Shown here piece by piece: positions 13,187 through 47,384 of a DNA stretch of 64,000 nucleotides. Numbering within the stretch: position 1 is the first letter of the stretch; the number at the start of each line of letters is the position of its first letter. The position numbers and the translations under genes are program-made. Source of the stretch: Acidobacteriota bacterium (GTDB taxonomy: Bacteria > Acidobacteriota > Blastocatellia > Pyrinomonadales > Pyrinomonadaceae); the NCBI GenBank assembly GCA_019639155.1, contig JAHBSJ010000002.1:124001-188000 (forward strand), in the 5' to 3' direction. A model generated the notes under the pieces. The model worked only from the letters and a program-made list of their open reading frames with translations. It was not told the origin of the DNA and made no database searches.

Positions 13187-14227
13187 ATGGCGATTTGGTT
13201 AGTGCGTGGCGGACGTTTCGGTGAATATGAATCAGCTTTCTTTCAAGACAACCGAGTTTATCTCACTTGGCAGGGATTGGGCTCGTACGATTTGAGCAAG
13301 GTCGAGACATCTGAAGAACTCCGTTCGATCCTTATTGAGGCGTATCCAGATGAGAAACCTGGGGCGATCCGAAATTATATCGGCCAAATAATGGGTTTCT
13401 TACGCGGTATTTCTGTTGGCGACTGGGTCGTTGTACCGCAAAAGAATAAACCCTTTATCGCGATCGGTGAAGTTATCGGTTCTATCAGATATGACAAACA
13501 GGCCACCGAACCCTTTTGGTTTTGGCATGATGTCAAATGGATCGATAAAGAGATACCCCGCTCGCGGTTTGACCAGGATCTATTGTATTCCTTTGGTGCC
13601 TTTATGACCGTGTGCAAGATCCAGCGTAATGATGCAGAAATCCGTATTCGGCAAATGGCCACCGCCGGCTGGCTATCCAATATAAGCACAAGCATTTCGT
13701 CAGGCGACTCCGAGAGCATCACCTACGAACCTGAGCAATCAAATTTAGAGGATGTCGGGATGGATCAGATCAGAAAACTGCTAGATCGCAGATTCAGAGG
13801 GCATGGGCTTGAAAGGGTCATCGACGCGATCCTTAAGGCTCAAGGTTATACGACATATCATAGTCCAAAAGGTGTCGATGGCGGCATTGATATTTTGGCA
13901 TCGCCCGGCCCACTCGGGTTTGGCTCGCCGAAACTTTGTGTTCAGGTCAAATCTCAGGATTCACCGCTCGATCGACCGACGCTCGATCAGTTGATCGGTA
14001 CGATGCAAAACGTCGGAGCCGAGCATGGTCTTCTTGTTGCTTGGAATGGTTTTAAATCATCGATAGATCAGGTGGCCGCCGCTCAGTTCTTTCGCGTCCG
14101 GCTATGGGACCAAAATGACGTTATTCGAGAACTTCTGGTGGAATACGAAAATCTAGACGAATCGCTAAAATCTGAAATACCGCTAAAGCAAATCTGGACC
14201 ATCGCTGCCGCCGAGGACGAAGAATAG
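13187..14227 (+). CDS. Mrr-type restriction endonuclease with N-terminal PUA/EVE-like domain
   Basis: The 346-residue protein has two parts. Residues 1 to ~165 resemble a PUA/EVE-like reader, beginning MAIWLVRGGRFGEYESAFFQ and containing GISVGDWVVVP. Residues ~190-320 are an Mrr catalytic domain with GVDGGID at ~229-235 and QVKSQ at ~253-257, the PD-(D/E)xK metal site. Such fusions are typical type IV enzymes that cut DNA carrying modified bases (family knowledge); the reader call is inferred from sequence cadence. It is separated from the type I operon by 188 bases and has its own leader with AAAGGAG before the start. It complements the operon by attacking modified instead of unmodified DNA. 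Confidence 0.85.
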   Translation: MAIWLVRGGRFGEYESAFFQDNRVYLTWQGLGSYDLSKVETSEELRSILIEAYPDEKPGAIRNYIGQIMGFLRGISVGDWVVVPQKNKPFIAIGEVIGSIRYDKQATEPFWFWHDVKWIDKEIPRSRFDQDLLYSFGAFMTVCKIQRNDAEIRIRQMATAGWLSNISTSISSGDSESITYEPEQSNLEDVGMDQIRKLLDRRFRGHGLERVIDAILKAQGYTTYHSPKGVDGGIDILASPGPLGFGSPKLCVQVKSQDSPLDRPTLDQLIGTMQNVGAEHGLLVAWNGFKSSIDQVAAAQFFRVRLWDQNDVIRELLVEYENLDESLKSEIPLKQIWTIAAAEDEE

Positions 14228-14364
14228 ACGAAATTGGAGTTTAGCGGTTCTTGCGTAGGCCGTCCGGAGGCGAGATTCCTCGCATTTTGTTGTAAAGACA
14301 GCAGTTAGCGTAACGCGGGACCTAAGAACAAAACCAAAAATCCAATTTTTTGTATCAAAGTCAC

Positions 14365-14532
14365 GTGACATTGGCTTATTTTCTCGTGACATTGGCCTGT
14401 TTTCTCGTGACATTGGCCTCTTTTCTCGTGACTTTGGCTTATTTTCTAGTGACATTGGCCTGTTTTCTCGTGACATTGGCTTATTTTCTCGTGACAATGG
14501 CCTGTTTTCTCGTGACAACGAGCACTTTTCTA
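14365..14532. repeat. Tandem array of eight 21-bp units
   Basis: Eight units with consensus GTGACATTGGCCTGTTTTCTC start at 14365, 14386, 14407, 14428, 14449, 14470, 14491 and 14512. Two alternative cores alternate, GGCTTATT and GGCCTGTT, and the last unit is degenerate. Units adjoin without spacers, so it is not a CRISPR array. Because 21 is a multiple of three, both strands stay open, but the translations are low-complexity heptads and no start or ribosome site supports coding. Confidence 0.92.
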
Positions 14533-14535
14533 GTG

Positions 14536-14960
14536 ATAAGTGATGAGCAGTGAGCAGTCAGCAGTCAGTAGTCAGCAGTCAGAATTCGGCAGAGGGCAGT
14601 GGGCAGTGAGCAGCAGTCAGTAGTCAGCAGCCAGAATTCGGCAATTAGCAAATAGCATTTGGCATTTGGCAGCAGTCAGTAGTCAGCAGTCAGCATTCGG
14701 CAATTAGCAATTAGCAATTAGCAATTAGCAGTTGGCAGTGGGCAGCAGTCAGTAGTCAGTAGTCAGCAGTGAGCAGTCAGCAGTCAGCATTCGGCAATTA
14801 GCAATTAGCATTTGGCAGTAGTCAGTAGTCAGTAGTCAGCAGTTGGCATTTGGCAGTGGGCAGCAGTCAGCAGTCGGCGTTCGGCAATTAGCAATTAGCA
14901 ATTAGCATTTGGCAGTGGGCAGTGAGCAGTCGGCATTCGACATTCAATATTCGACATTCA
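14536..14960. repeat. Non-coding imperfect repeats (AGTCAGCAGTCAG / CGGCAATTAGCA)
   Basis: This stretch is built from short imperfect words: GCAGTCAGTAGTCAGCAG, CATTCGGCAATTAGCAATTA, GCATTTGGCAGTGGGCAG and near the end ATTCGACATTCAA. About five higher-order copies can be traced by the words TTCGGCA at roughly 14585, 14636, 14696, 14790 and 14880. No gene, promoter or terminator is evident. With the 21-bp array it separates the defence island from the next gene. Confidence 0.85.
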
Positions 14961-16989: not shown

Positions 16990-17037
16990 TCAGATCTCGA
17001 CCTCGTCGATCTGCGCCTTTTGCAGCTTGCCGCTGTA
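16990..17037 (-). pseudogene. Displaced 3' tail of the aldehyde dehydrogenase gene (16 codons)
   Basis: On the minus strand this encodes [15 protein letters not shown] and a TGA stop. That peptide is identical to the C-terminus of the intact aldehyde dehydrogenase, whose corresponding bases are 17678-17725. The last codons differ only synonymously (GAG GTC GAG ATC TGA here; GAA GTT GAG ATA TAA there), while 35 bases in the middle are identical. The fragment begins eight bases after the vapC stop, so vapBC lies exactly between the two copies. It cannot be expressed as a protein on its own. Confidence 0.9.
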
Positions 17038-17044
17038 GCAGTAT

Positions 17045-17461
17045 CTACTGATCAGGCACCTTTATTACAAAACCGGCCTTTTCAAAATCACTGTCGAAAG
17101 TGAGGGCTGTACTAAGCTCGTCGCGTCCCATGACAACGAACGAAATACAGTCGGTCAAAGAAAAGTTCTTGTCACTGAATTTCTTGAATGATGACCAGCC
17201 TTCAAAAAACAGATCTTCGTCGACGTGTACGAGATCGATGCGAGGGCTTAGAAGCATGCCCTCGCCTAACGACACAGCGTTCCGATGAGCACCTCTACTG
17301 TTCAGAAACGTCACAGATTCGTCCAGCACATAAGTCGTAGTTACAAAATGAGATCTGGATAGATCCAGAGAGTTCCACAATGAATGAGCGATCGCATGAT
17401 TCTGATCATCACTCAATTCGAGTGCGATCCAAAAGCTAGAATCAACAAAAAGCTTGGTCAT
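17045..17461 (-). CDS. vapC: VapC-type PIN-domain ribonuclease toxin
   Basis: The 138-residue protein is a PIN domain, the fold of VapC toxins that cut RNA (often tRNA or rRNA) in a metal-dependent way. The acidic residues fall in the expected places: Asp7 (KLFVDSSFW), Glu48 (YVLDESV), Asp104 (SLTDCISF) and Asp123/Asp125 (TFDSDF). The start overlaps the antitoxin stop by four bases (17458-17461), the standard coupling of such pairs. It is AT-richer than the aldehyde dehydrogenase upstream. The module is bracketed by a duplicated aldehyde dehydrogenase tail, evidence of acquisition. Confidence 0.92.
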   Translation of the reverse strand: MTKLFVDSSFWIALELSDDQNHAIAHSLWNSLDLSRSHFVTTTYVLDESVTFLNSRGAHRNAVSLGEGMLLSPRIDLVHVDEDLFFEGWSSFKKFSDKNFSLTDCISFVVMGRDELSTALTFDSDFEKAGFVIKVPDQ

Positions 17462-17670
17462 TTGCCAGAATATAGATACTCATCGAGATTGACAGAAGCA
17501 TCGGGCACGCCGCCCTTGACCGGCTCTTTGCCGATGCGAAATATAGGATCATCGTCGTTGACCGGGATCACAACAATATTCTTGCCTTGTTGCCTGATCT
17601 CAACCTCGACCACTCCCTCGAGCATTCCCCGAGGTATAGTGATCCCATTCTCTGTGACCTGCGTTCTCAT
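17458..17670 (-). CDS. vapB: Antitoxin of the VapBC pair
   Basis: The 70-residue protein starts MRTQVTENGITIPRGMLEGV, the look of an AbrB/SpoVT or MazE-like DNA-binding half-barrel, and ends in an acidic tail (ASVNLDEYLYSG) suited to blocking the toxin. It starts only seven bases after the aldehyde dehydrogenase stop codon, so it could be read from that transcript. The start at 17670 is chosen over an upstream one because the longer frame runs backwards into aldehyde dehydrogenase sequence. Antitoxins of this kind usually repress their own operon. Confidence 0.87.
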   Translation of the reverse strand: MRTQVTENGITIPRGMLEGVVEVEIRQQGKNIVVIPVNDDDPIFRIGKEPVKGGVPDASVNLDEYLYSGK

Positions 17671-17677
17671 AGTCCGA

Positions 17678-19216
17678 TTATATCTCAACTTCGTCGATCT
17701 GCGCCTTTTGCAGCTTGCCGCTGTAATCGACGTAAAGAGCCTTCCATTCGCTGAAGATGTCCAACACCTGCGTGCCGGCTTCGCGGTGGCCGTTGCCGGT
17801 CGCCTTCGTACCGCCGAAAGGCAGGTGGACCTCAGCACCGATTGTCGCTGAATTCACATAGCAGATGCCTGTATAAAGCTCCTGCATAGCATAGAAAGCG
17901 TTGTTCACGTCCTGCGTATAGATCGCCGACGACAGGCCGTATTTGACGCCGTTGACTATCTTGATCGCCTCGTCGAGCGTCGAGAACGGAATGACGCTGG
18001 TTACGGGGCCGAAGATCTCTTCCTGTTCGATACGCATTCCGGGTGCGACGTCCGAGAAGACCGTCGGTTCGACGAACCAGCCGTTCTTCAGATCGCCCTT
18101 CGCCGCGCGGTTTCCGCCGACGGCAAGCGTCGCTCTGTCGATCTCTTTGCCGATGTGGACGTAGCCCAGGATCTTCTGCATCGCGTCCTCGTGAATGACC
18201 GGGCCGACCTCGGTCTTCGGATCCAGGCCGTTGCCGACGCGGAGTGTTTTGACACGCTCGACCAGCTTTGCGACGAATTTCTTGTAGATCTTTTTGTGAA
18301 CGACCAGGCGTGACGAGGCCGTGCAGCGTTGGCCGCTGGTGCCGAAGGCTCCCCACAGCGAGCCGTCAACTGCGTTGTCGATGTCGGCGTCGTCCATTAC
18401 GATGATGGCGTTCTTGCCGCCCATTTCGAGCGAGACGATCTTGTTGTCGCGTGCGCACTGCTCGGCGATGATCCGCCCCGTGTTGGTCGAACCCGTGAAC
18501 GAGATCAGCCGAACGTCTTCGTGCCCGACAAGGGCCGCACCCGCATCGCCGAAACCGTTGACAAGATTGACGACGCCTTTCGGAATGCCCGCCTTTTCAC
18601 ACGCCTTGACCAGATTCAGAGCTGAAAGCGGTACGTCCTCGCCTGATTTGATGACCACGGTGTTTCCGCAGACGAGCGCCGGGATGAGTTTCCAGGACGG
18701 GATCGCCATCGGGAAATTGAACGGCGTGATCAGCCCGCATAGCCCGACAGGCTGGCGGACGCACATAGCGAATTTGTTCGGCATTTCAGCCGGCGTCGTA
18801 AAACCGTGCAAACGCCGGCCTTCGCCCGCGGTGTAATAGGTGCAGTCGATGGCTTCCTGAACGTCGCCGCCCGCTTCTTTCAGAACTTTTCCCATTTCGC
18901 GGGTCATTTCCTGCGTGTAGCGGTCCTTATTGTCACGAATGATCTCGGCCAGGTTGAACAACAGTTCTGCTCGCTTCGGTGCGGGCGTACGCCGCCAGCG
19001 GTCGGCCGCTTCCGCGGCCGATGCGACTGCAGCATCAACGTCTGCAGCGTTGGACTTCGGAAAACGCCCGACGATATCGCTTGTGTTTGCCGGATTTACG
19101 TTGTCAAACCATTCGCCCGACGAGCTTTTTACCCATTCGCCGCCGATGTAGTTGTAATACTTCGCGACCGCGGGTTTTGCGGCCTTTTTCTCTTTAGCTT
19201 GTTTTGCTTTTGCCAT
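17678..19216 (-). CDS. NAD(P)-dependent aldehyde dehydrogenase
   Basis: The 512-residue protein is a full-length aldehyde dehydrogenase, oxidising an aldehyde to its acid. Catalytic residues are Asn167 (TPFNFP), Glu264 (SLEMGGKNA) and the nucleophile Cys298 ([12 protein letters not shown]); the coenzyme loop is FTGSTNTG. The first ~18 residues are a lysine/alanine-rich extension. The substrate is unclear; semialdehyde-type members look closest. Its last 16 codons (17678-17725) are duplicated at 16990-17037 on the far side of vapBC, so the present 3' end may have arrived with that module. It is six bases downstream of the htrA-like gene and probably co-transcribed with it. Confidence 0.95.
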
Positions 19217-34770: not shown

Positions 34771-34947
34771 AAACTGTCTTTCGCTCGCCTCGCCGGACCG
34801 TTTTTTTCGCTCGCCGAGCAGAAAAACTCTGCCTATTTGATCACTTTTCGTTCCGCTGCGTCGCGCCGTCTTGAACGTCGTCATGGCGATCTATCCTCGG
34901 TCAAATGCACCTACTCCATCACAACGCGCAACGACCGCCGTTTCACC

Positions 34948-35241
34948 GCAAACGACCAAAACGCTCCCACAATTCACCACAATACTCCGTCACTTCACCA
35001 AAACGCCATTACAATTCACCAAAACACCTCGCGCGTCGACCAAAACGCTCCGTCACCTCACCAAAAAGCCCTTACAATTCACCAAAACACCTCGCGCGTC
35101 GACCAAAACGCTCCGTCACCTCACCAAAAAGCCCTTACAATTCACCAAAACACCCCGCGCGTCGACCAAAACGCTCCGTCACCTCACCAAAAAGCCCTTA
35201 CAATTCACCAAAACATCCCGCGCATCGACCAAAACGCGCAC
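34948..35241. repeat. Fourteen-copy 21-bp tandem array with 63-bp higher-order unit
   Basis: Fourteen contiguous 21-base units share the core (C/G)ACCAAAA. From 34990 they cycle in threes. The three unit types are ACAATTCACCAAAACACCTC+G, CGCGTCGACCAAAACGCTCC+G and TCACCTCACCAAAAAGCCCT+T. This gives nearly identical 63-base blocks at 35011, 35074 and 35137. The period keeps reading frames open, but the predicted peptides (H/T-Q-N/K-rich) resemble nothing known and a separate promoter follows at 35344. Confidence 0.93.
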
Positions 35242-35343
35242 CGCCCCCGCCCCTGCCCCTGCTGCTGCTCCTGCCCCTGCTGCTGCTCCTGCCCCTGCTG
35301 CTGCTCCTGCTCCTGCTTCTGCCGCTGCCGCTGTCATTGCCGC
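35242..35343. repeat. Low-complexity CCTGCTGCTCCTGCC tract
   Basis: About 100 bases of imperfect CCCCTG/CTGCTGCTC repeats continue directly from the 21-bp array. No gene or signal is seen in it. Confidence 0.85.
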
Positions 35344-35371
35344 TTGACAAGTTCAAAATCAGGCGTATCAT
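35344..35371 (+). promoter_or_regulatory. Sigma70 promoter for the 35428 gene
   Basis: TTGACA (35344-35349), 16-base spacer, TATCAT (35366-35371). The gene starts 57 bases downstream with GGAGG at 35411. It supports placing the gene start at 35428 and treating the upstream repeats as non-coding. Confidence 0.65.
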
Positions 35372-35427
35372 TGTCTCACCGCAGAAATTTATCGGTACAA
35401 CACTTTTTTTGGAGGTTCATCATCCCT

Positions 35428-36084
35428 ATGAACGACAGAAACCGCAGGTATCTCGAATCCGGCCAGCGTTGCCGTCAGTGGATCGCAGACAATTCGGCGT
35501 TAATTCCGGCCGGCAGTTTATTCGAAACAAAGACGACGCAGTTCACGGCTTTGGTCGATGACGTCGAGAACGTCGCCGGCGAGGCCGCCGCCTTTACCGG
35601 CGAAGGCCTGTCCGCGACCGACGTCAAAGGCTCCGAACGCCTCGACATGATCGAGCTGATGACAAAGATCCGCAACGCCGCTCGCGCCGCCGAACCCGAT
35701 CATCCCGGCACACGCGACCGCTACCGTTTTTCACGCACGATGTCGCATCAGGTCCTGCTCGCCACCGGCCGCAGCTTTGCCGAAGGCGGCGTAGACGATC
35801 TGGCATTGCTCGTCAGCTACGGCGCTCCCGGCAGTTGGCCCGATCATATGACAATGGCCTGCCAGGAATACGAAGATTCTTTTGGCCAACAGGATTCCGC
35901 CGTCAGCTCTCGCATCGGTAAAAATGCCGAGCTCAGCGAAAAAATAAACCAAATGACGGCCCTAAAAGCCACCATCGGCCACCTCGTCAAAAACTACTGC
36001 GCCGGCAACACAGCCGCCCTCGCGTCCTGGACGGCCGCCGCCCACGTCGAGTCCCCACCAAAGAAAAAACCCCCGACACCATGA
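35428..36084 (+). CDS. Unknown protein with a Lys/Pro-rich tail
   Basis: The 218-residue protein (MNDRNRRYLESGQRCRQWIA) is not recognised. It is mostly helical, contains DMIELMTKIRNAARAAEP, and ends in a basic proline-rich tail (HVESPPKKKPPTP). The open frame extends far upstream through the tandem repeats, but the promoter at 35344 and GGAGG at 35411 favour 35428. Its last 18 codons (36029-36084) are duplicated at 37520-37585 beyond two inserted genes. The intact gene now lacks the terminator arm that its original 3' end carried. Confidence 0.75.
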   Translation: MNDRNRRYLESGQRCRQWIADNSALIPAGSLFETKTTQFTALVDDVENVAGEAAAFTGEGLSATDVKGSERLDMIELMTKIRNAARAAEPDHPGTRDRYRFSRTMSHQVLLATGRSFAEGGVDDLALLVSYGAPGSWPDHMTMACQEYEDSFGQQDSAVSSRIGKNAELSEKINQMTALKATIGHLVKNYCAGNTAALASWTAAAHVESPPKKKPPTP

Positions 36085-36166: not shown

Positions 36167-37111
36167 ATGAATGTAAACAGAAAAATCCATACGTTATTTG
36201 TCGCGTTGATCGCGCTCTCTATTCTTCTTTTTCCAGGATGCGATAGGAGAGAAGAAGGTAGTGCATTAGCTACGGAAGGAGCTGCAACACTTGAAAAAAT
36301 AGCTGAGTTCTACGACATGCTGATCATAAGCACTGAGGAATCGAGAGATGCGGAATCGATCTTTCGGGCATTCACCCGGATGCCATTCCCACCGGAACAG
36401 CAGGCGACATTCGACAAACAAGCCTCGAACCTTCGAAAACGGGCTCAGCTCGCTCGATCGTTTTCAGATACCTTTAAGACATTGGGCAAATTAGCAGAGT
36501 ATAATGCTTCTGCCGAAGTCAAGGAATCGACTACGAAGCTCGCCAAGGAAATTCAAACGCTCCCCAAGATGTCAGCCGACTCTATAGACCCCTCAAAGAT
36601 TTTCGGCATGATAGCAGGTGATTTAATGGCTCTGAAGCAATCGAAAGATTTGAGGCGGGGTGCGGTGTTGATCCGCGATGCATTAAGCAAATATCAGCTT
36701 CTTTTCGATAATGAGATCGAGGTTTACAAAGGAATTGCGGTTGATCGGTATAAGAAGTTCAACAATGTAGCATATTGGCTTTTCCACAAGAATCTTGTTC
36801 AAAGCTCGGGGCTCTTGAACCCTTCAGTATCAGCATTGGGTTTGTCGATCGATATGAAGAAGGCGGATGCTGATCCCGATTTGATGCGGGCCGTAGAATC
36901 AATCGCTCGGGGACGAGCAGAAAAGATGATGGCTGTCGGACAAATGGCAGCCCATACCGCTCAGCGGGATCTATCCAAACTAGCTGCAACAGTCGATAGA
37001 TTTATTGCAAAACGTCCCTTTACATTATCCGAGGGAATTCAGCTTACTGCCGAATTACAAAAATATCTTGAAGAGATTGAGAGTCTCAGGAAGGCCAAAA
37101 AGGAGGAATAG
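36167..37111 (+). CDS. Putative lipoprotein, unknown, inserted cargo
   Basis: The 314-residue protein has a lipoprotein signal (FVALIALSILLFPGCDRRE; lipidated Cys about residue 25) with ribosome-binding AAAAGGAG before the start. The remainder is helical, with ATLEKIAEFYDMLIISTEES and a C-terminal coiled coil ending LEEIESLRKAKKEE. No family is recognised. It is clearly AT-richer than the genes on both sides. With the 37118 gene it lies between two copies of the 3' end of the 35428 gene, so it is probably acquired. Confidence 0.8.
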   Translation: MNVNRKIHTLFVALIALSILLFPGCDRREEGSALATEGAATLEKIAEFYDMLIISTEESRDAESIFRAFTRMPFPPEQQATFDKQASNLRKRAQLARSFSDTFKTLGKLAEYNASAEVKESTTKLAKEIQTLPKMSADSIDPSKIFGMIAGDLMALKQSKDLRRGAVLIRDALSKYQLLFDNEIEVYKGIAVDRYKKFNNVAYWLFHKNLVQSSGLLNPSVSALGLSIDMKKADADPDLMRAVESIARGRAEKMMAVGQMAAHTAQRDLSKLAATVDRFIAKRPFTLSEGIQLTAELQKYLEEIESLRKAKKEE

Positions 37112-37117
37112 AACTAC

Positions 37118-37444
37118 ATGTCAGATACAAAGACTTTTTTAGAGATCCAAGAAACCTACTTTCTCATTGAGCAGAATTTTAACTCGCTTTTCGTGAGATG
37201 CGAGAGCGAGGCACACCGGAATGAACTTCGTTCAGCCTATCAGGTTGCGTTTATGAATTACGCTGCCGCAAAGGAAAAAATATTTCGTGACAATGAGCCG
37301 CAACTCAGATTTTTGAGAAATCATCTCGACAATACGCAAAATGAGATAAAGACGATGCTGGAGAACGAGCAAAAAATAGGTAAAACTCTCAATCTGATAA
37401 CCTCTGCGGTTCGCATTGTAAGCAGCATAATTGCACTAGCCTAG
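37118..37444 (+). CDS. Unknown 108-residue protein paired with the lipoprotein
   Basis: The protein begins MSDTKTFLEIQETYFLIEQN and is predicted all-helical and coiled-coil, with a short hydrophobic C-terminus (LITSAVRIVSSIIALA) that could anchor in or insert into a membrane. It starts six bases after the lipoprotein stop, so the two are co-translated and may act together. The combination of a surface lipoprotein and a small membrane-tipped helical protein could be an effector/immunity or envelope complex; that is speculation. Confidence 0.75.
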   Translation: MSDTKTFLEIQETYFLIEQNFNSLFVRCESEAHRNELRSAYQVAFMNYAAAKEKIFRDNEPQLRFLRNHLDNTQNEIKTMLENEQKIGKTLNLITSAVRIVSSIIALA

Positions 37445-37519: not shown

Positions 37520-37585
37520 GGGACCGCCGCCGCCCACGTCGAGGCCCCACCAAAGAAAAAACCCCCGACACCACCCGTGCCGTAG
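37520..37585 (+). pseudogene. Displaced 3' tail of the 35428 gene (21 codons plus stop)
   Basis: It reads GTAAAHVEAPPKKKPPTPPVP then TAG. The intact gene ends WTAAAHVESPPKKKPPTP. Bases 37521-37573 match 36029-36081 with two mismatches in 53. This copy continues three codons further and contains the full terminator, so it is likely the ancestral 3' end, pushed about 1.5 kb away by the two inserted genes. Confidence 0.9.
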
Positions 37586-37594: not shown

Positions 37595-37595
37595 T

Positions 37596-37859
37596 GTCAC
37601 CATCGGTGACCAATATTATAGCGTAGGGTGATAACCCTACGTCAGCCACGAATATGATCTTGTCACCAAAGGTGACGAACACCGCAATGCAAATATCAAC
37701 GGTCGTGGTTGAATATTATCTGATCGATCGGACAACGTTCGTCCCCTCCGGGGACGGATGATAAATAATACGTTTCGTAGGGTTTCACCCTACGCTATAT
37801 TTTTTGTCTCCTTCGGAGACATTGGGAAGCACAATGCCGCGTGGGGTTACCACCCTGCG
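37596..37859. repeat. Cluster of seven small hairpins of two alternating kinds
   Basis: Type A stems: GTCACC-ATC-GGTGAC (37596), GTCACC-AAA-GGTGAC (37662), GTCTCC-TTC-GGAGAC (37806). Type B stems: CGTAGGGT-GATA-ACCCTACG (37622), CGTAGGGT-TTC-ACCCTACG (37776), CGTGGGGT-TACC-ACCCTGCG (37840). One further stem is CGTCCCC-TCC-GGGGACG (37740). Several arms differ by compensating changes, which suggests structure is conserved. No coding frame fits; it resembles an interspersed REP/MITE-like element. Confidence 0.8.
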
Positions 37860-40986: not shown

Positions 40987-41073
40987 ACTTCGGCGAAACC
41001 GCCTCAGTCGCCAGCGTAAATCGCAAGCTGTAAGTTTTCGATCAAGGTTTTATAAAGGAAAAGTAAAGACCTC

Positions 41074-41754
41074 TTATGCGACAAAACGATATCCGACCCA
41101 AGGTTCCGTCAGTATGTGCTTTGGTTTTGAAGGATCGGGTTCGATCTTTTTTCTGAGGTTTCCAACGAAGACCCGAAGATACTCGACCTGGCCGATATAT
41201 TCAGCGCCCCAAATTTTGGAAAGAAGCGTTCGGTGGGTCATGACGCGATCCTGATTCTGCGCAAATAGTGTCAACAGGTCAAACTCTTTCGGCGTCAAAT
41301 GCACTTCGGATTTGCCCGCGAATACACGGCGAGCCGAAACATCGATACGCAGGTCACCGGCTTCGATCGTACCCGCATGATTCTCATCCGGAGTTCTGCG
41401 CAGGGCGGCACGTACGCGCGCAAGCAATTCGTTCATCCCAAATGGCTTTGTGATGTAGTCGTCGGCTCCGGCGTCGAGCGCTTCCACTTTCGTGCTTTCC
41501 TGCCCTTTCACCGAAAGAACGATGATCGGAACATCTGAATGGCGTCGAAGCTCTCGGCAAACATCGATCCCGGACATCTCCGGCATCGAAAGATCGGTAA
41601 TGACCAGATCCGGCTTGAGGTCGTGAAACGTCTCCAGCCCCGATTCACCGTCCGCGGCGGTCCTGACGTCGTAGCGATTTGCCTGCAGACTTCGCTTTAG
41701 GACGCGCGTGATCTGAAATTCGTCATCGATGACAAGTATCTTTTTCGGAGGCAT
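41074..41754 (-). CDS. kdpE: OmpR-family response regulator, KdpE-like
   Basis: The 226-residue protein has a receiver domain (~1-120) with acidic pocket Asp10-Asp11, phospho-acceptor Asp54 (DLVITDLSMPEMSG) and conserved Lys (VLSVKGQ). A winged-helix DNA-binding domain (~130-226) follows, with HLTPKEFDLLTLFAQNQDRV and VGYRFVA. Sequence style matches KdpE, which activates potassium uptake genes. It is 23 bases downstream of the sensor kinase and therefore its partner. No kdpFABC genes are in the window; kup is the nearest candidate target. Confidence 0.93.
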   Translation of the reverse strand: MPPKKILVIDDEFQITRVLKRSLQANRYDVRTAADGESGLETFHDLKPDLVITDLSMPEMSGIDVCRELRRHSDVPIIVLSVKGQESTKVEALDAGADDYITKPFGMNELLARVRAALRRTPDENHAGTIEAGDLRIDVSARRVFAGKSEVHLTPKEFDLLTLFAQNQDRVMTHRTLLSKIWGAEYIGQVEYLRVFVGNLRKKIEPDPSKPKHILTEPWVGYRFVA

Positions 41755-41777
41755 ATCTAGTCTCTAGTCGGCATGAC

Positions 41778-42947
41778 CTAAACAGCTTCTGTCGGCAGTG
41801 TAACCGTAAATTTCGTTCTAAATCCATCATCACCGTCATCGACGGATATTCCGCCGCCGTGCGATTCGACAATGCCCTTAGCGATCGCCAGCCCCAGACC
41901 CAGTCCGCTCCCGGTCGTGTGGATCTCTGATTCTTTGATCCGGTAGAACTTATCAAATACCCTTTCCCTCTGCGGCCGGGGTATTCCTACGCCCTGATCT
42001 TCAACAGAAACCGCGATCCCATCTGCCATTTGTCGGGCACGGACACGTATCAATGACCCCTCTTTCGAATATTTCGCCGCATTATCCAAGAGCGTGAAAA
42101 AGACCTCGGCTATCGAGACCGGATCTACAAATACCTGCGGTAGGTCGGCCGGAATATCAGTTTCGACAAGGCGGTTTCTAAGTATCCGCGATGCTCGACT
42201 TGCAGCGATCTCGATGATCTCTTGAATGGACGATGGAGTTCGGAGCAGATCGAGGGCTCCCGACTCCACCTTTGCGATACCGACGATACCCTCGACGAAT
42301 TCGTTCAAACGGTCAGTTTCCTCGTCTATCACCTCGAGCAATTCACGCTGGCCTGCCTGATCCATCTCGCTCTTGGACGGAACATCCAGCAGCGTGGTTA
42401 CAGATGCTTTTATAGACGTCAGCGGCGTGCGAAGATCATGGGTGACGGCGTCCAACAGTGCGGTCTTCAGCATCTCACTCCGTTTTAGTGCCTCGGCCTC
42501 ACTCGCCTTGTCAAAAGCCTGACGAAGTTCATCGTAAAGCCCTTCGATCTCCCTTTTTTGCCGTTCAGACTCGGCCGCTCGACGCTTGGCATATCCTGAA
42601 AGCTGCCCTGCGACCAAAGCCGTAACGACAAACGCCGCAAAGGCCGTCCAGTTCTCGGTCCCTGTAATGGTGAACGTATGGAAAGGAGGAAGAAAGAAAA
42701 AGTTGAAGCCCAATATCCCGGCAACGGACGCGGCAAGGCCCGCTCGGCTTCCGAAAAATGTTGAGGCTAATAAAACTACCAACAGCAGAGTCAACGCCAC
42801 TTCAGTTGTGTTCAGATCCTCTTTGAATGGCAGCAGCAAAAGGAATACGCCGATCACCAATGCCGCGGATGCTGCAATTCCTCTTAACGCCCGCCTCTTG
42901 CTGGATCCTTCCGAAACCACTGACATCAGCGACAGTATATACCCCAA
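41778..42947 (-). CDS. KdpD-like sensor histidine kinase, truncated form
   Basis: The 389-residue kinase has the DUF4118 four-segment membrane region of KdpD (~25-120; GILGFNFFFLPPFHTFTITG). The HisKA helix follows with phospho-acceptor His170 (LLDAVTHDLRTPLTSIK), then an HATPase domain (DNAAKYS, DQGVGIPRPQRERVFDKFYR, GSGLGLGLAIAKGIVESHGG). The large N-terminal KdpD and Usp domains of classical KdpD (~890 residues) are missing, so potassium/ATP sensing must differ. It is paired with the downstream regulator. The displaced tail of an MFS gene ends seven bases before its start. Confidence 0.92.
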   Translation of the reverse strand: MGYILSLMSVVSEGSSKRRALRGIAASAALVIGVFLLLLPFKEDLNTTEVALTLLLVVLLASTFFGSRAGLAASVAGILGFNFFFLPPFHTFTITGTENWTAFAAFVVTALVAGQLSGYAKRRAAESERQKREIEGLYDELRQAFDKASEAEALKRSEMLKTALLDAVTHDLRTPLTSIKASVTTLLDVPSKSEMDQAGQRELLEVIDEETDRLNEFVEGIVGIAKVESGALDLLRTPSSIQEIIEIAASRASRILRNRLVETDIPADLPQVFVDPVSIAEVFFTLLDNAAKYSKEGSLIRVRARQMADGIAVSVEDQGVGIPRPQRERVFDKFYRIKESEIHTTGSGLGLGLAIAKGIVESHGGGISVDDGDDGFRTKFTVTLPTEAV

Positions 42948-42953
42948 AATAGA

Positions 42954-43076
42954 TCAGTCGTGTACATTTTCACGGCCGCGCTCGCGGATGAACCAGAACA
43001 CACCGGCGAAGGCGGACAGTATGCCGGAGAACAGCGTGAGCGTTTGGGGGGTGATGTGATACATCAGGCCGACCGC
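42954..43076 (-). pseudogene. Displaced 3' tail of the MFS transporter gene (about 41 codons)
   Basis: On the minus strand it reads AVGLMYHITPQTLTLFSGIL onward and ends WFIRERGRENVHD then TGA. The intact MFS gene reads AGGLMYYMTPQTLTLFSGIL and ends in WFIRERPGGQTGESV. Bases 42980-43071 match 43585-43676 with six mismatches in 92. The last residues differ completely. The fragment begins right after the stop of the intervening 124-residue gene and has no start of its own. Confidence 0.92.
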
Positions 43077-43082
43077 ATGAGG

Positions 43083-43457
43083 CTATTCCCCGCCATTCCT
43101 GATCTTTTCCACTAACTCGCGGATCTTCGGGGTGTTTGGGTGGTCGGGGAGTTCTTTTTCGACGTATTCGAGTACCATTTCGGCTCGTTCTTCGAGGTCG
43201 AGCATGGTCAGATCGAGGTCGTTGTTGGCGTCGACGAGCTTGACGGTCGCGGCGTACTCATCGGCAAGTGCCTTTTCCATCTTCGGGATCCTGGCTTCTA
43301 TCTCGGCTAGATCCGCCAAAAACTGGGTGAGCGGTATATTTGGCATAATGCCCGCGGCCATACTAGCTTTTGCAAATGCGAGTGCCTCTTTTGCCTCTTC
43401 GAGCTCTTTAGCGGCTTGCGTATAGCCGCTCTTGTCTAGTTGTTCTTGAAGATCCAT
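43083..43457 (-). CDS. Unknown 124-residue coiled-coil protein, inserted cargo
   Basis: The protein (MDLQEQLDKSGYTQAAKELE) is highly charged and predicted helical throughout, with heptad character in QFLADLAEIEARIPKMEKAL and LDLEERAEMVLEYVEKELPD. No family is recognised. It begins ~95 bases after the MFS stop and ends at the beginning of the displaced MFS tail, so it sits precisely between the two copies of that gene's 3' end. This marks it as an acquired cargo gene. Confidence 0.75.
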   Translation of the reverse strand: MDLQEQLDKSGYTQAAKELEEAKEALAFAKASMAAGIMPNIPLTQFLADLAEIEARIPKMEKALADEYAATVKLVDANNDLDLTMLDLEERAEMVLEYVEKELPDHPNTPKIRELVEKIRNGGE

Positions 43458-43552
43458 TGCTCCTCAAATATATTTCATGATCACCGAACTCTCTCTGCGC
43501 CCACATTATCGCCGAAACCCCGCCAAATTTTCAACAACTTAGAGTGTTCAGG

Positions 43553-44830
43553 TCAAACGCTTTCACCGGTCTGTCCGCCCGGCCGCTCGCGGATGAACCA
43601 GAGCACACCGGCGAAGGCGGACAGTATGCCGGAGAACAGCGTGAGCGTTTGGGGCGTCATGTAGTACATCAGACCGCCGGCGACGTAGCTTGAGATGCCG
43701 AATACGGCAAGTTCGGCGCCGCGGTCGATGGTGGAAATGCGTCCGCGGATCATGTCGGGCAGGCTTCGTTGGAACATCGTCTCCTGCACCGCATATTCGA
43801 CGCCTATGATCAGCCTCGATAAAAACAGCAGCACCGCAAAAAGCCATAACGTCGGCATATACGCGGCCGCCGCAAACAATAAGCCGTGAATGATCAGCGC
43901 CCAGCCGACGAACTGATAATTGCGGCCCTTGCGGTCAAGGTAAATGCTCGTGCGATGAGCCAGGAACATCCCGCCCGCCAAGCCAAAACCGGTCACGGTC
44001 CACAAAACGGCCACTGCAACGTCCGGATTCCAGCCTTCGGTCTCGGCAAAATGTACGCCGCCGAGCCGCTCAAAGATCATATTCACCGCTCCGCCGCCCG
44101 CCGCCCAGATCACGTTGAGTACGAGAATCGTCAGCGCGAAATGTTCCGTGAACGCATACTTGATGCCGTCGCGGAGCTCTTTCACGAACGGCTCGCGTGC
44201 CGTTTTGTCAGCCATACGGCCGGCCGTCGCTTCGTCGCGGGTGGCTTCTTCGGGAATCAGCCAGACCGTGTAGGCAGACGCCAAGAATGAGATCGCGTTT
44301 ATGATGAACGCCGTCTCGTATCCGAACGCCGCCGCCGCCCAACCACCCAATGCCGATCCGATCGCCATCAGTAAGAACCTGGTTGAGAACAACAGAGCCA
44401 CACCCGAAAGCAGACCTTCTTTTCCCGTCAGGTTTGGAGCCGCCGCGTTCTTTGCACCGTCAAAGAACGCACCGAAAGTATGCAGCAGCACCGTTGCTAC
44501 GTACGCGATCCAAAGATTCTCTTTACTCGTAACCAGCAGGAAAGAAAGTGCGACAGCGGCCCTCGCAATATCGGTCCAGATCATCACCTGCCGCCGCGAG
44601 AACCTATCGACGAACGTCCCCGCGATCGGCGACGCTATCGCGAACGGCAGAAGACGCGCCAAAAAGAAAAGCCCTGCCGCCATCGGCTCCGCCCCCGAGA
44701 TAAAACGCACGAGCCCCAAACCAGCGATGAAATTGAACCAATTACCGAGTTCCGAGATGAATTGCCCCGCAAGCAGATTGCGAAAGTTTCGGTTGCCGCG
44801 GATGAGTTGGCTGTATGAGAGCGACTGCAC
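43553..44830 (-). CDS. Major facilitator superfamily transporter
   Basis: The 425-residue protein has about 12 membrane segments. The MFS loop signature appears as VDRFSRRQVMIWTDIARA between segments 2 and 3. The type resembles the EntS/DHA3 group of drug or siderophore exporters, with a long central loop containing DEATAGRMADKTAREPFVKE. Substrate unknown. Its final ~31 codons are duplicated at 42954-43076 beyond the 43083 gene. The intact and displaced tails differ in amino acids, so the 3' end of the present gene may be a replacement. Confidence 0.93.
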   Translation of the reverse strand: MQSLSYSQLIRGNRNFRNLLAGQFISELGNWFNFIAGLGLVRFISGAEPMAAGLFFLARLLPFAIASPIAGTFVDRFSRRQVMIWTDIARAAVALSFLLVTSKENLWIAYVATVLLHTFGAFFDGAKNAAAPNLTGKEGLLSGVALLFSTRFLLMAIGSALGGWAAAAFGYETAFIINAISFLASAYTVWLIPEEATRDEATAGRMADKTAREPFVKELRDGIKYAFTEHFALTILVLNVIWAAGGGAVNMIFERLGGVHFAETEGWNPDVAVAVLWTVTGFGLAGGMFLAHRTSIYLDRKGRNYQFVGWALIIHGLLFAAAAYMPTLWLFAVLLFLSRLIIGVEYAVQETMFQRSLPDMIRGRISTIDRGAELAVFGISSYVAGGLMYYMTPQTLTLFSGILSAFAGVLWFIRERPGGQTGESV

Positions 44831-44875
44831 CTGATAAGAATAGCCGAGCGTAACGTAATCGCTAAGTCAGGCGGG

Positions 44876-44905
44876 AGGCACCATTGTGCGAACGGTGCCT
44901 TTTTG
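44876..44905 (+). terminator. Orphan plus-strand terminator-like hairpin
   Basis: AGGCACC (44876-44882) pairs with GGTGCCT (44894-44900), followed by a T run. No plus-strand gene ends here: the MFS gene starts at 44830 on the minus strand and the receptor gene ends at 44988 on the minus strand. It may mark a small antisense RNA or be a relic. Confidence 0.5.
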
Positions 44906-44987
44906 TGATGTTTACGGTTTTACGATTTCGATCTTGCTTCACTGGCGGGTCGTGGGATCAACGGAGGAAATTGTCTGAACCTATCGG

Positions 44988-47384
44988 CTACTTACTGAAT
45001 CGAATGTGAATGCCGACCTGGATCAGCCGCGGCGATGAAGGCAGGATTCCGCGTGTACGGTCAACAATATCCGTGCGGTTTGTCAGATTCTTTACTGTAA
45101 TGAAGAACGTCGAACGCAGCCGCTCGACGGTGTAGTTTGCCGTCGCATTCCAATAGTTCTGCGCATTGATAGGGCCGCGTTGGCCATTCGCGACGGTGGT
45201 ACTCAGATTCAGATCATCACCGAACTGCTTGCCGACGAATACATTTTCTATGAACATATCTACGCCTCTTGTATGCGAATATCCAAGGCTCGTCGTCGAA
45301 AGGAATTTGGGTGTATACGGAATACGATTGCCGGTGATCGCGATCGAAGGGTTTAGCGAGCTGAACCTCACCCCACGAAACTCTGCAGTGCCCAAATAGG
45401 TGAGCGATGCCCGCAAATAGACGTTGTGCCGCGATCCGATCCACGATCCGCTGTCCGCCTGTGCGGACGCCTCGAATCCCTGCTGCAGCGTTCGCCCCCC
45501 GTTCGTCAACGCCGCCCCTGCGCCGCCTGCAACGCTTGAGGGTACGATCTGGTTTTTATAGTCATTGCGAAACAGCGCAGCCTCTATTTTCAGTCCGCGG
45601 AATGGATCGCCGCGAAGTCCTGCCTCATAATTCCAACTTTCTTCCGGATCCAGTTCAACGACGCCGCCCGCATTCGTGATGATGTCCTCGGCTCGCGGCG
45701 GTGAAAAGCCTTTATGGATCCCTGCAAATATTGTGATCCTCGGCAACCCGGCATACGCGACACCTACGCCCGGGATCACTGCTGTTATCTTCGTCTCGCC
45801 GAATGCGGCGGGATTCGCGAGCAGATTCGTCCTGTTCACTCGAATTCGCTCAAAACGCACTCCCGGCGTGACCGCAAACCGGCCATACAGAAATCTCTGC
45901 TGAATAAATCCCGCGGTCGCAAAGTTGCTTCTAAGATTATTTTCAACAAGAACACCGCTGCGGCTCAACGGCAGATCACCGTTCTCCTGGCGGCGGCTCT
46001 GCTCTTCCCAATGGAGCCGAAATCCAGCCTGAAACTCACCGCGCATGCCGCTACCGAGTGAGAAAGTCTGAGTAAAACGCGGCTCGATGCCGTAGGTTTT
46101 GTATTTCCGCAGACGCCCCTCGTTGCCGCAGGTCGAGTTCAGATCGGCCATGCTCAGACAGTCGGGATCGACGTTCAGCCGATTAGGCCGCTGGCCGGAA
46201 TTCGAGGATTGCCGCCACCAATCGCGATTGAAATGATTGAAATAGAACGTCGTATTTAGAACCGCTGACGGCGAGATCACGGCGGTGTGTGCCGCCGAAA
46301 AGCCAAAACGGTCGCCGTAAAAGAAATCGTTCTTAAATGGATTCTGCCGCGGATCCGCCGCGTATTCTGCTTCGGTCAGACCGGAATATGTGACATTCGA
46401 ATCCTCGCCCAGGTAATTCAATTTCAAAGTCAAAGCGTTTCTGTCGTTGACGCGATGGACGGCCTTTGCCGTTAGGTCGTTGACCTTTGAATTGATGTTC
46501 TCGCGTGAGCCGTTACTCTGTTTTCGCGTGAAACCGGCAAATATCCCTGTTCTGCCGATCGTTCCGGAAGCGGTTCCGCTGCCGTTGAAAAACCCGCGGT
46601 TCCCTCCGATCATCCGCAGCGAGAAACTGGGCCTCTCGGTTGGCTGCGGTGTTATGTAATTGATAACGCCGGCGACCGTCTGCGGGCCGAACGCGATCTG
46701 CCCCGAGCCTTTCAACACTTCTATCGCCTCATAACGCTCGACCGGCGGATGATAATACGAGGCATTATCGCCATACGGCGCATAGGCTAGCGGAATACCG
46801 TCCTCAAGCAGCAGTATCTTGGTCGAACGCGTCGGATTCGTTCCGCGTATCGATATATTCGGCCGCAGGCCGAGGCCTTCCTCATCCCGGACATTCACAC
46901 CGCTAACTTTTCGCAATACTTCTGAGAAATTGGCGGCTCGCGTAGAAACAAGAGTCGTTCCATCAATGCGGCTGATCGAGCCGGGTGTCTCATCGAGGCT
47001 TTCCGGCGTTCCCGCCAGCATTGTTGTCGTCACCGCCAGGTCAACCGCGATATTCGCCGGCGTCAGAAACACCTCATAAGATCCGTTCGGCTGAGGTGTG
47101 GAAGTCATAGTAGAAGCAAAACCCTTTGCCGACACCGCAACTTCGCTGATATCCGAGGGCAGCAGAGGGGTCCGGCAAAGACCCTCCCCGTCAGCAACGC
47201 ATGTGACATCCGCCGCGTTTCCTGCTCTTTTGATCACAACCCGCGCACCGGGAATAACGTCGCCATTCGTATCGCGAATAATTATCGTCACACTTTGTGT
47301 CGTTTGAGCACCGGCGATGATGGACAACAAGAGAATTATGAAAAAGACCGGGTAAAAGTTTCGTCTGAAAGAGGAGCGTTGCAT
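44988..47384 (-). CDS. TonB-dependent siderophore/iron receptor, FecA-like
   Basis: The 798-residue outer-membrane receptor has a signal peptide (FFIILLLSIIAGAQ), then a carboxypeptidase-regulatory-like sandwich (~28-115; DTNGDVIPGARVVIKRAGNA), a plug domain (~130-245; TPGSISRIDGTTLVS, PNISIRGTNPTRSTKILLLE) and a 22-strand beta-barrel ending GIHIRFSK with the expected aromatic residue near the end. The plug is closest to FecA-type ferric-citrate receptors. A perfect palindromic Fur-like box lies 20 bases upstream, so iron-controlled expression is likely. Energised by TonB-ExbBD, which is not encoded here. Confidence 0.93.
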   Translation of the reverse strand: MQRSSFRRNFYPVFFIILLLSIIAGAQTTQSVTIIIRDTNGDVIPGARVVIKRAGNAADVTCVADGEGLCRTPLLPSDISEVAVSAKGFASTMTSTPQPNGSYEVFLTPANIAVDLAVTTTMLAGTPESLDETPGSISRIDGTTLVSTRAANFSEVLRKVSGVNVRDEEGLGLRPNISIRGTNPTRSTKILLLEDGIPLAYAPYGDNASYYHPPVERYEAIEVLKGSGQIAFGPQTVAGVINYITPQPTERPSFSLRMIGGNRGFFNGSGTASGTIGRTGIFAGFTRKQSNGSRENINSKVNDLTAKAVHRVNDRNALTLKLNYLGEDSNVTYSGLTEAEYAADPRQNPFKNDFFYGDRFGFSAAHTAVISPSAVLNTTFYFNHFNRDWWRQSSNSGQRPNRLNVDPDCLSMADLNSTCGNEGRLRKYKTYGIEPRFTQTFSLGSGMRGEFQAGFRLHWEEQSRRQENGDLPLSRSGVLVENNLRSNFATAGFIQQRFLYGRFAVTPGVRFERIRVNRTNLLANPAAFGETKITAVIPGVGVAYAGLPRITIFAGIHKGFSPPRAEDIITNAGGVVELDPEESWNYEAGLRGDPFRGLKIEAALFRNDYKNQIVPSSVAGGAGAALTNGGRTLQQGFEASAQADSGSWIGSRHNVYLRASLTYLGTAEFRGVRFSSLNPSIAITGNRIPYTPKFLSTTSLGYSHTRGVDMFIENVFVGKQFGDDLNLSTTVANGQRGPINAQNYWNATANYTVERLRSTFFITVKNLTNRTDIVDRTRGILPSSPRLIQVGIHIRFSK

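Follow-up and report, generated by a model that had tools for sequence, protein, structure and literature searches.

A gene for a 124-residue protein lies, in the 64,000-nucleotide stretch analysed here (the window, bases 124001-188000 of contig C12), between an MFS transporter gene and a second, diverged copy of that gene's own 3' end. Four congeners have an empty site at the same place, a second MFS tail is absent from all congeners compared, and a similar arrangement recurs at another gene of the genus, encoding an aldehyde dehydrogenase (ALDH). As the best reading of the MFS insertion we lean, by a slight balance of probability, towards homology-facilitated illegitimate recombination (HFIR), for which we infer a donor, a direction and a recombination route.

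The MFS gene end and its empty sites

The source genome (G000) consists of 3.2 Mb in 25 contigs and is 95% complete, and it was compared with a sample of one genome per species. On the minus strand, the 124-residue ORF comes after the MFS gene; beyond it lie the duplicated MFS 3' end and the genes for a sensor kinase and a response regulator:

41074..41754, minus strand: response regulator of the MFS-kinase synteny block (PF00072, PF00486)
41778..42947, minus strand: sensor kinase (PF13493, PF00512, PF02518), directly after MFS in four congeners by synteny
42979..43076, minus strand: MFS 3' segment, displaced copy, defined by the repeat match and reading on to a TGA at 42954-42952
43083..43457, minus strand: cargo gene, 124 residues, charged (ORF list and family searches)
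43584..43681, minus strand: MFS 3' segment, upstream copy, 90/98 identical to the displaced copy
43553..44830, minus strand: intact MFS transporter with the upstream tail copy (PF07690, 8.2e-28), a single-copy orthologue in nearly all congeners

A repeat search of the window delimited the two segments as a 98-base direct repeat (42979-43076 against 43584-43681) with a spacing of 605. The sequence-only reading had described a 92-column repeat at this place, and a new count over those columns gave the same 6 differences; it had also rightly placed the 124-residue gene between both tails and the displaced tail in frame to its own stop. The displaced tail translates as AVGLMYHITPQTLTLFSGILSAFAGVFWFIRERGRENVHD up to its TGA, and the intact MFS protein ends in ...AGGLMYYMTPQTLTLFSGILSAFAGVLWFIRERPGGQTGESV and a stop. 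Only 6 bases separate the stop of the cargo ORF from the displaced copy, and 4 bases lie between the end of the displaced tail and the kinase ORF. Chance is ruled out in practice as the source of the match, since self-comparison of the 346 kb contig gave the tail pair an E value of 1e-35, and a search downstream of MFS gives a best 60-base match of 59/60 here versus 28-34/60 in 29 congeners.

In G035, G012, G019 and G009, the kinase starts 8-57 bases after the MFS stop and is followed by the response regulator, while in most other congeners a gene on the opposite strand comes after MFS. Because the kinase adjoins MFS directly in these four genomes, the displaced tail occupies the position of their MFS end, and the event was an insertion at the MFS 3' end. 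No second MFS tail was present downstream of MFS in 34 congeners (the 29 above plus G023, G031, G036, G010 and G033). The same 34 were searched for a decayed full-length second MFS gene, which the sequence-only reading had named as evidence against itself, and none was seen. This bears on a tandem duplication of MFS and cargo followed by deletion of the second MFS save its end, which would indeed leave a tail fragment beside the kinase; we consider it quite improbable, as the congeners examined hold neither a second MFS nor a longer remnant and the deletion would have had to end 6 bases after the cargo stop.

The cargo protein is probably helical. Searches of Pfam, NCBIfam, PHROGs and PADLOC gave it no family match above cut-off, and no relative or donor was found in 119 genomes of the order, in a GTDB contig scan, or among plasmids, phages and viral contigs; RNA families were likewise absent from 41000-45500. 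Duplication of gene 3' ends is common among islands that carry a recombinase, and a site-specific recombinase acting from elsewhere could in principle have integrated the insert at this one. We regard such an origin as very improbable: the insert is a single 124-residue gene without a family match, no integrase lies in it and no recombinase in or near it, and the repeats described here and below vary in length (44, 53, 98) and position, one of them, in G023, being internal to its gene.

Similar scars at other gene ends

A repeat scan of contig C12, whose scope is this contig and which gives no genome-wide rate, recovered three non-tandem gene-end pairs (MFS, ALDH and 36029/37521) together with some closely spaced or repeat-rich ones. 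The two further pairs are arranged as follows:

16994..17037, minus strand: ALDH 3' end, displaced copy (44 nt, 95%; 35/36 versus a shuffled maximum of 23)
17045..17673, minus strand: VapBC-like toxin-antitoxin pair, cargo (PIN domain PF01850, 6.8e-12; weak VapB match)
17682..17725, minus strand: ALDH 3' end, upstream copy (44 nt, 95%)
17678..19216, minus strand: ALDH, target of the parallel case (congener orthologues at 82-90% identity)
36029..36081, plus strand: 3' end of ORF 34837-36084, upstream copy of the third pair (53 nt, 96%)
37521..37573, plus strand: displaced copy of the third pair, behind two uncharacterised genes (36167-37111 and 37118-37444), matching residues 203-220 of ORF 34837-36084

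When the last 150 bases of the ALDH gene were compared with the 1.5 kb behind it at 34 loci (G000 included), a tail copy rose above shuffled controls only in G000, G005, G023 and G036. G005 carries a two-gene module behind ALDH, together with an ALDH end that has diverged and closes with a TAG of its own. In G023 the same module is followed by a piece of ALDH, internal to the gene, and then by VapBC. Unguided self-comparison also recovered the repeats of G005 and G023, and detected no ALDH repeats in G027, G035, G020 and G012. The first gene of the module encodes a DUF6932 protein with a nucleotidyltransferase-like match below cut-off, and we infer that the module is toxin-antitoxin-like. Similar scars recur in the genus, and behind one metabolic gene two of them hold toxin-antitoxin-like genes.

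Within locus L122 of G023 (539-1911), two small modules are stacked after one ALDH gene with the ALDH piece between them. In locus L148 of G036, a decayed ALDH 3' piece lies about 60-175 bases after the ALDH stop with no gene before it, perhaps a scar left after cargo loss.

An assembly artefact, with the region stitched together from the versions of two strains in a metagenome-like assembly, is improbable. A repeat of just this kind would result from a mixed join at homologous sequence, and the genome is in 25 contigs; against this, the independent assemblies G005 and G023 share the anatomy at ALDH, and at the MFS locus the kinase comes next as in congeners.

Divergence of the copies

In a codon alignment, the MFS tails share 90/99 positions with each other, and either tail shares at most 73/99 with any relative. 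Seven of the nine differences fall in the first 9 of the 33 aligned codons, and the next 51 bases are identical. Tail affinity was judged by tabulating shared states rather than from a tree, 33 codons with 9 differences being too few to resolve one. At some of the differing sites the displaced copy agrees with G027, the nearest relative by MFS (TAT CAC ATC), and at others its state is private; the upstream copy likewise combines states common to relatives with private ones, so that neither of the two stands out simply as the one in decay. The sequence-only reading had expected the tails to group apart, one with the host lineage and one with the donor, and had held that recent sisterhood of the two would refute it. 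The tabulated states appear to lack any such clean split, and both tails are mutually nearest, which taken literally is the refuting outcome, yet a donor of the same or a sister species would fit as well. No sampled species comes as near to either tail as the other tail does; a donor, if there was one, would therefore be closer than all of these species.

Neutral decay after duplication should place about one third of the differences at third codon positions, an expectation that purifying selection on the intact copy pushes up. Pooled over four pairs (MFS in G000, and ALDH in G000, G005 and G023), which were picked because they had been found and leave out those of G036 and 36029/37521, the differences number 4/2/19 at codon positions 1/2/3. 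This third-position excess (19/25) gives P = 1.6e-5 if one third is expected, 0.007 if one half and 0.07 if 0.6; the MFS pair by itself is weak (6/9 at third positions). Because the pooled differences are mostly at third positions, the comparison favours, without proving it, divergence between alleles that were still coding over decay of one copy.

These data bear most directly on the main rival, an insertion with long target duplication, in which the process that brought in the cargo also copied the end of the resident gene, with divergence of the copies afterwards. The locus does combine the two marks of such an event, an empty site in relatives and a long direct repeat around the insert, and its anatomy is the one named by Nobusato et al. 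(2000), as far as PMC1643837 describes it; the mutual nearness of the MFS tails also fits. The third-position excess and the mixture of shared and private states in both copies, neither simply decaying, weigh against it, and we consider it possible but unlikely. The proposal of the sequence-only reading, that a foreign tail arrived with the cargo, gains from the insertion into an ancestral MFS-kinase junction (four empty sites) and from the coding-like divergence of the copies; its other element, a donor of the 124-residue gene, did not emerge from the searches.

Proposed route and comparison with known systems

Under HFIR, a piece of DNA from a close relative, bearing its own MFS gene end and the cargo gene, would have entered the cell. 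One end of this piece would have recombined homologously inside the resident MFS gene, and the other would have been joined imprecisely within that gene's final 98 bases. This would leave, in order, an MFS gene that now finishes with the incoming end, the cargo, and the former end of the resident gene, which has kept its place beside the kinase. The MFS and ALDH frames are intact into the insert side, and no affinity switch or mosaic signal is visible along MFS. In G005 and G023 alike, the near junction of the DUF6932 module lies a few bases at most from the ALDH stop, and its far junction differs; a near junction alike in two species with a different far one is what the HFIR model predicts. 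The far junctions at ALDH in fact differ among G000, G005 and G023, which is the variable position looked for under HFIR. In G003, VapBC lies directly behind ALDH without a tail copy, and this, like the near-stop joins in G005 and G023, is a donor-like arrangement.

The DNA-uptake gene ComEC was present in 38/41 genomes searched in the genus, which speaks for HFIR. Several points count against it. ComEC (PF03772) was not found in G000, which may reflect loss, an assembly gap in this 95% complete genome or another entry route. The cargo donor was not among the sequences searched, MFS shows no affinity switch, its third-position excess by itself is weak, and the mutually nearest MFS tails would also be expected from self-duplication. 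A search for the Ku end-joining protein was negative.

HFIR has been modelled for the T6SS immunity arrays of V. cholerae (PMC5361080), which share with our loci one homologous anchor, one illegitimate join, an added module and an old gene end moved downstream. Our insertions, in contrast, hit ordinary genes (MFS, ALDH), with toxin-antitoxin-like or unfamilied cargo in place of effector-immunity pairs. Insertion with long target duplication in H. pylori, frequently of restriction-modification genes according to the account of Nobusato et al. (2000) in PMC1643837, likewise sets a small gene set within a long direct repeat of its target; relative to the case as outlined there, the copy differences here suggest two alleles. 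A homology-assisted model was also given (Figure 7 legend) for small variable segments arising by illegitimate recombination (PMC2884548), which are short as well and strain-specific there; their repeats are mostly below 30 bp, whereas ours span 44-98 bases at gene ends.

The kind of scar is already known, and the place is new. It is conceivable, although we hold this only tentatively and think it rather doubtful, that small modules without a recombinase, frequently toxin-antitoxin-like, dock repeatedly at the 3' ends of genes in this genus, each bringing along an end piece of the neighbouring gene as homology anchor, the 124-residue gene being a further such module. At defined sites, the loci carry what look like dated scars of gene gain, and related species show both the empty and the filled version, so that the spread of small modules such as toxin-antitoxin pairs that lack their own recombinase can be studied by comparison.

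The window holds other repeats. A dense array of 14- and 21-base repeats (CTCGTGACATTGGC...) occupies 14340-14948, beside an ORF (13187-14227) that by eye appears restriction-endonuclease-like. Tandem repeats of 63 bases (NTPRVDQNAPSPHQKALTIHQ) lie within an ORF at 34913-35290, and a 42-base inverted repeat (37595-37636 / 37780-37821, 76% complementary) is intergenic behind the third repeat pair.
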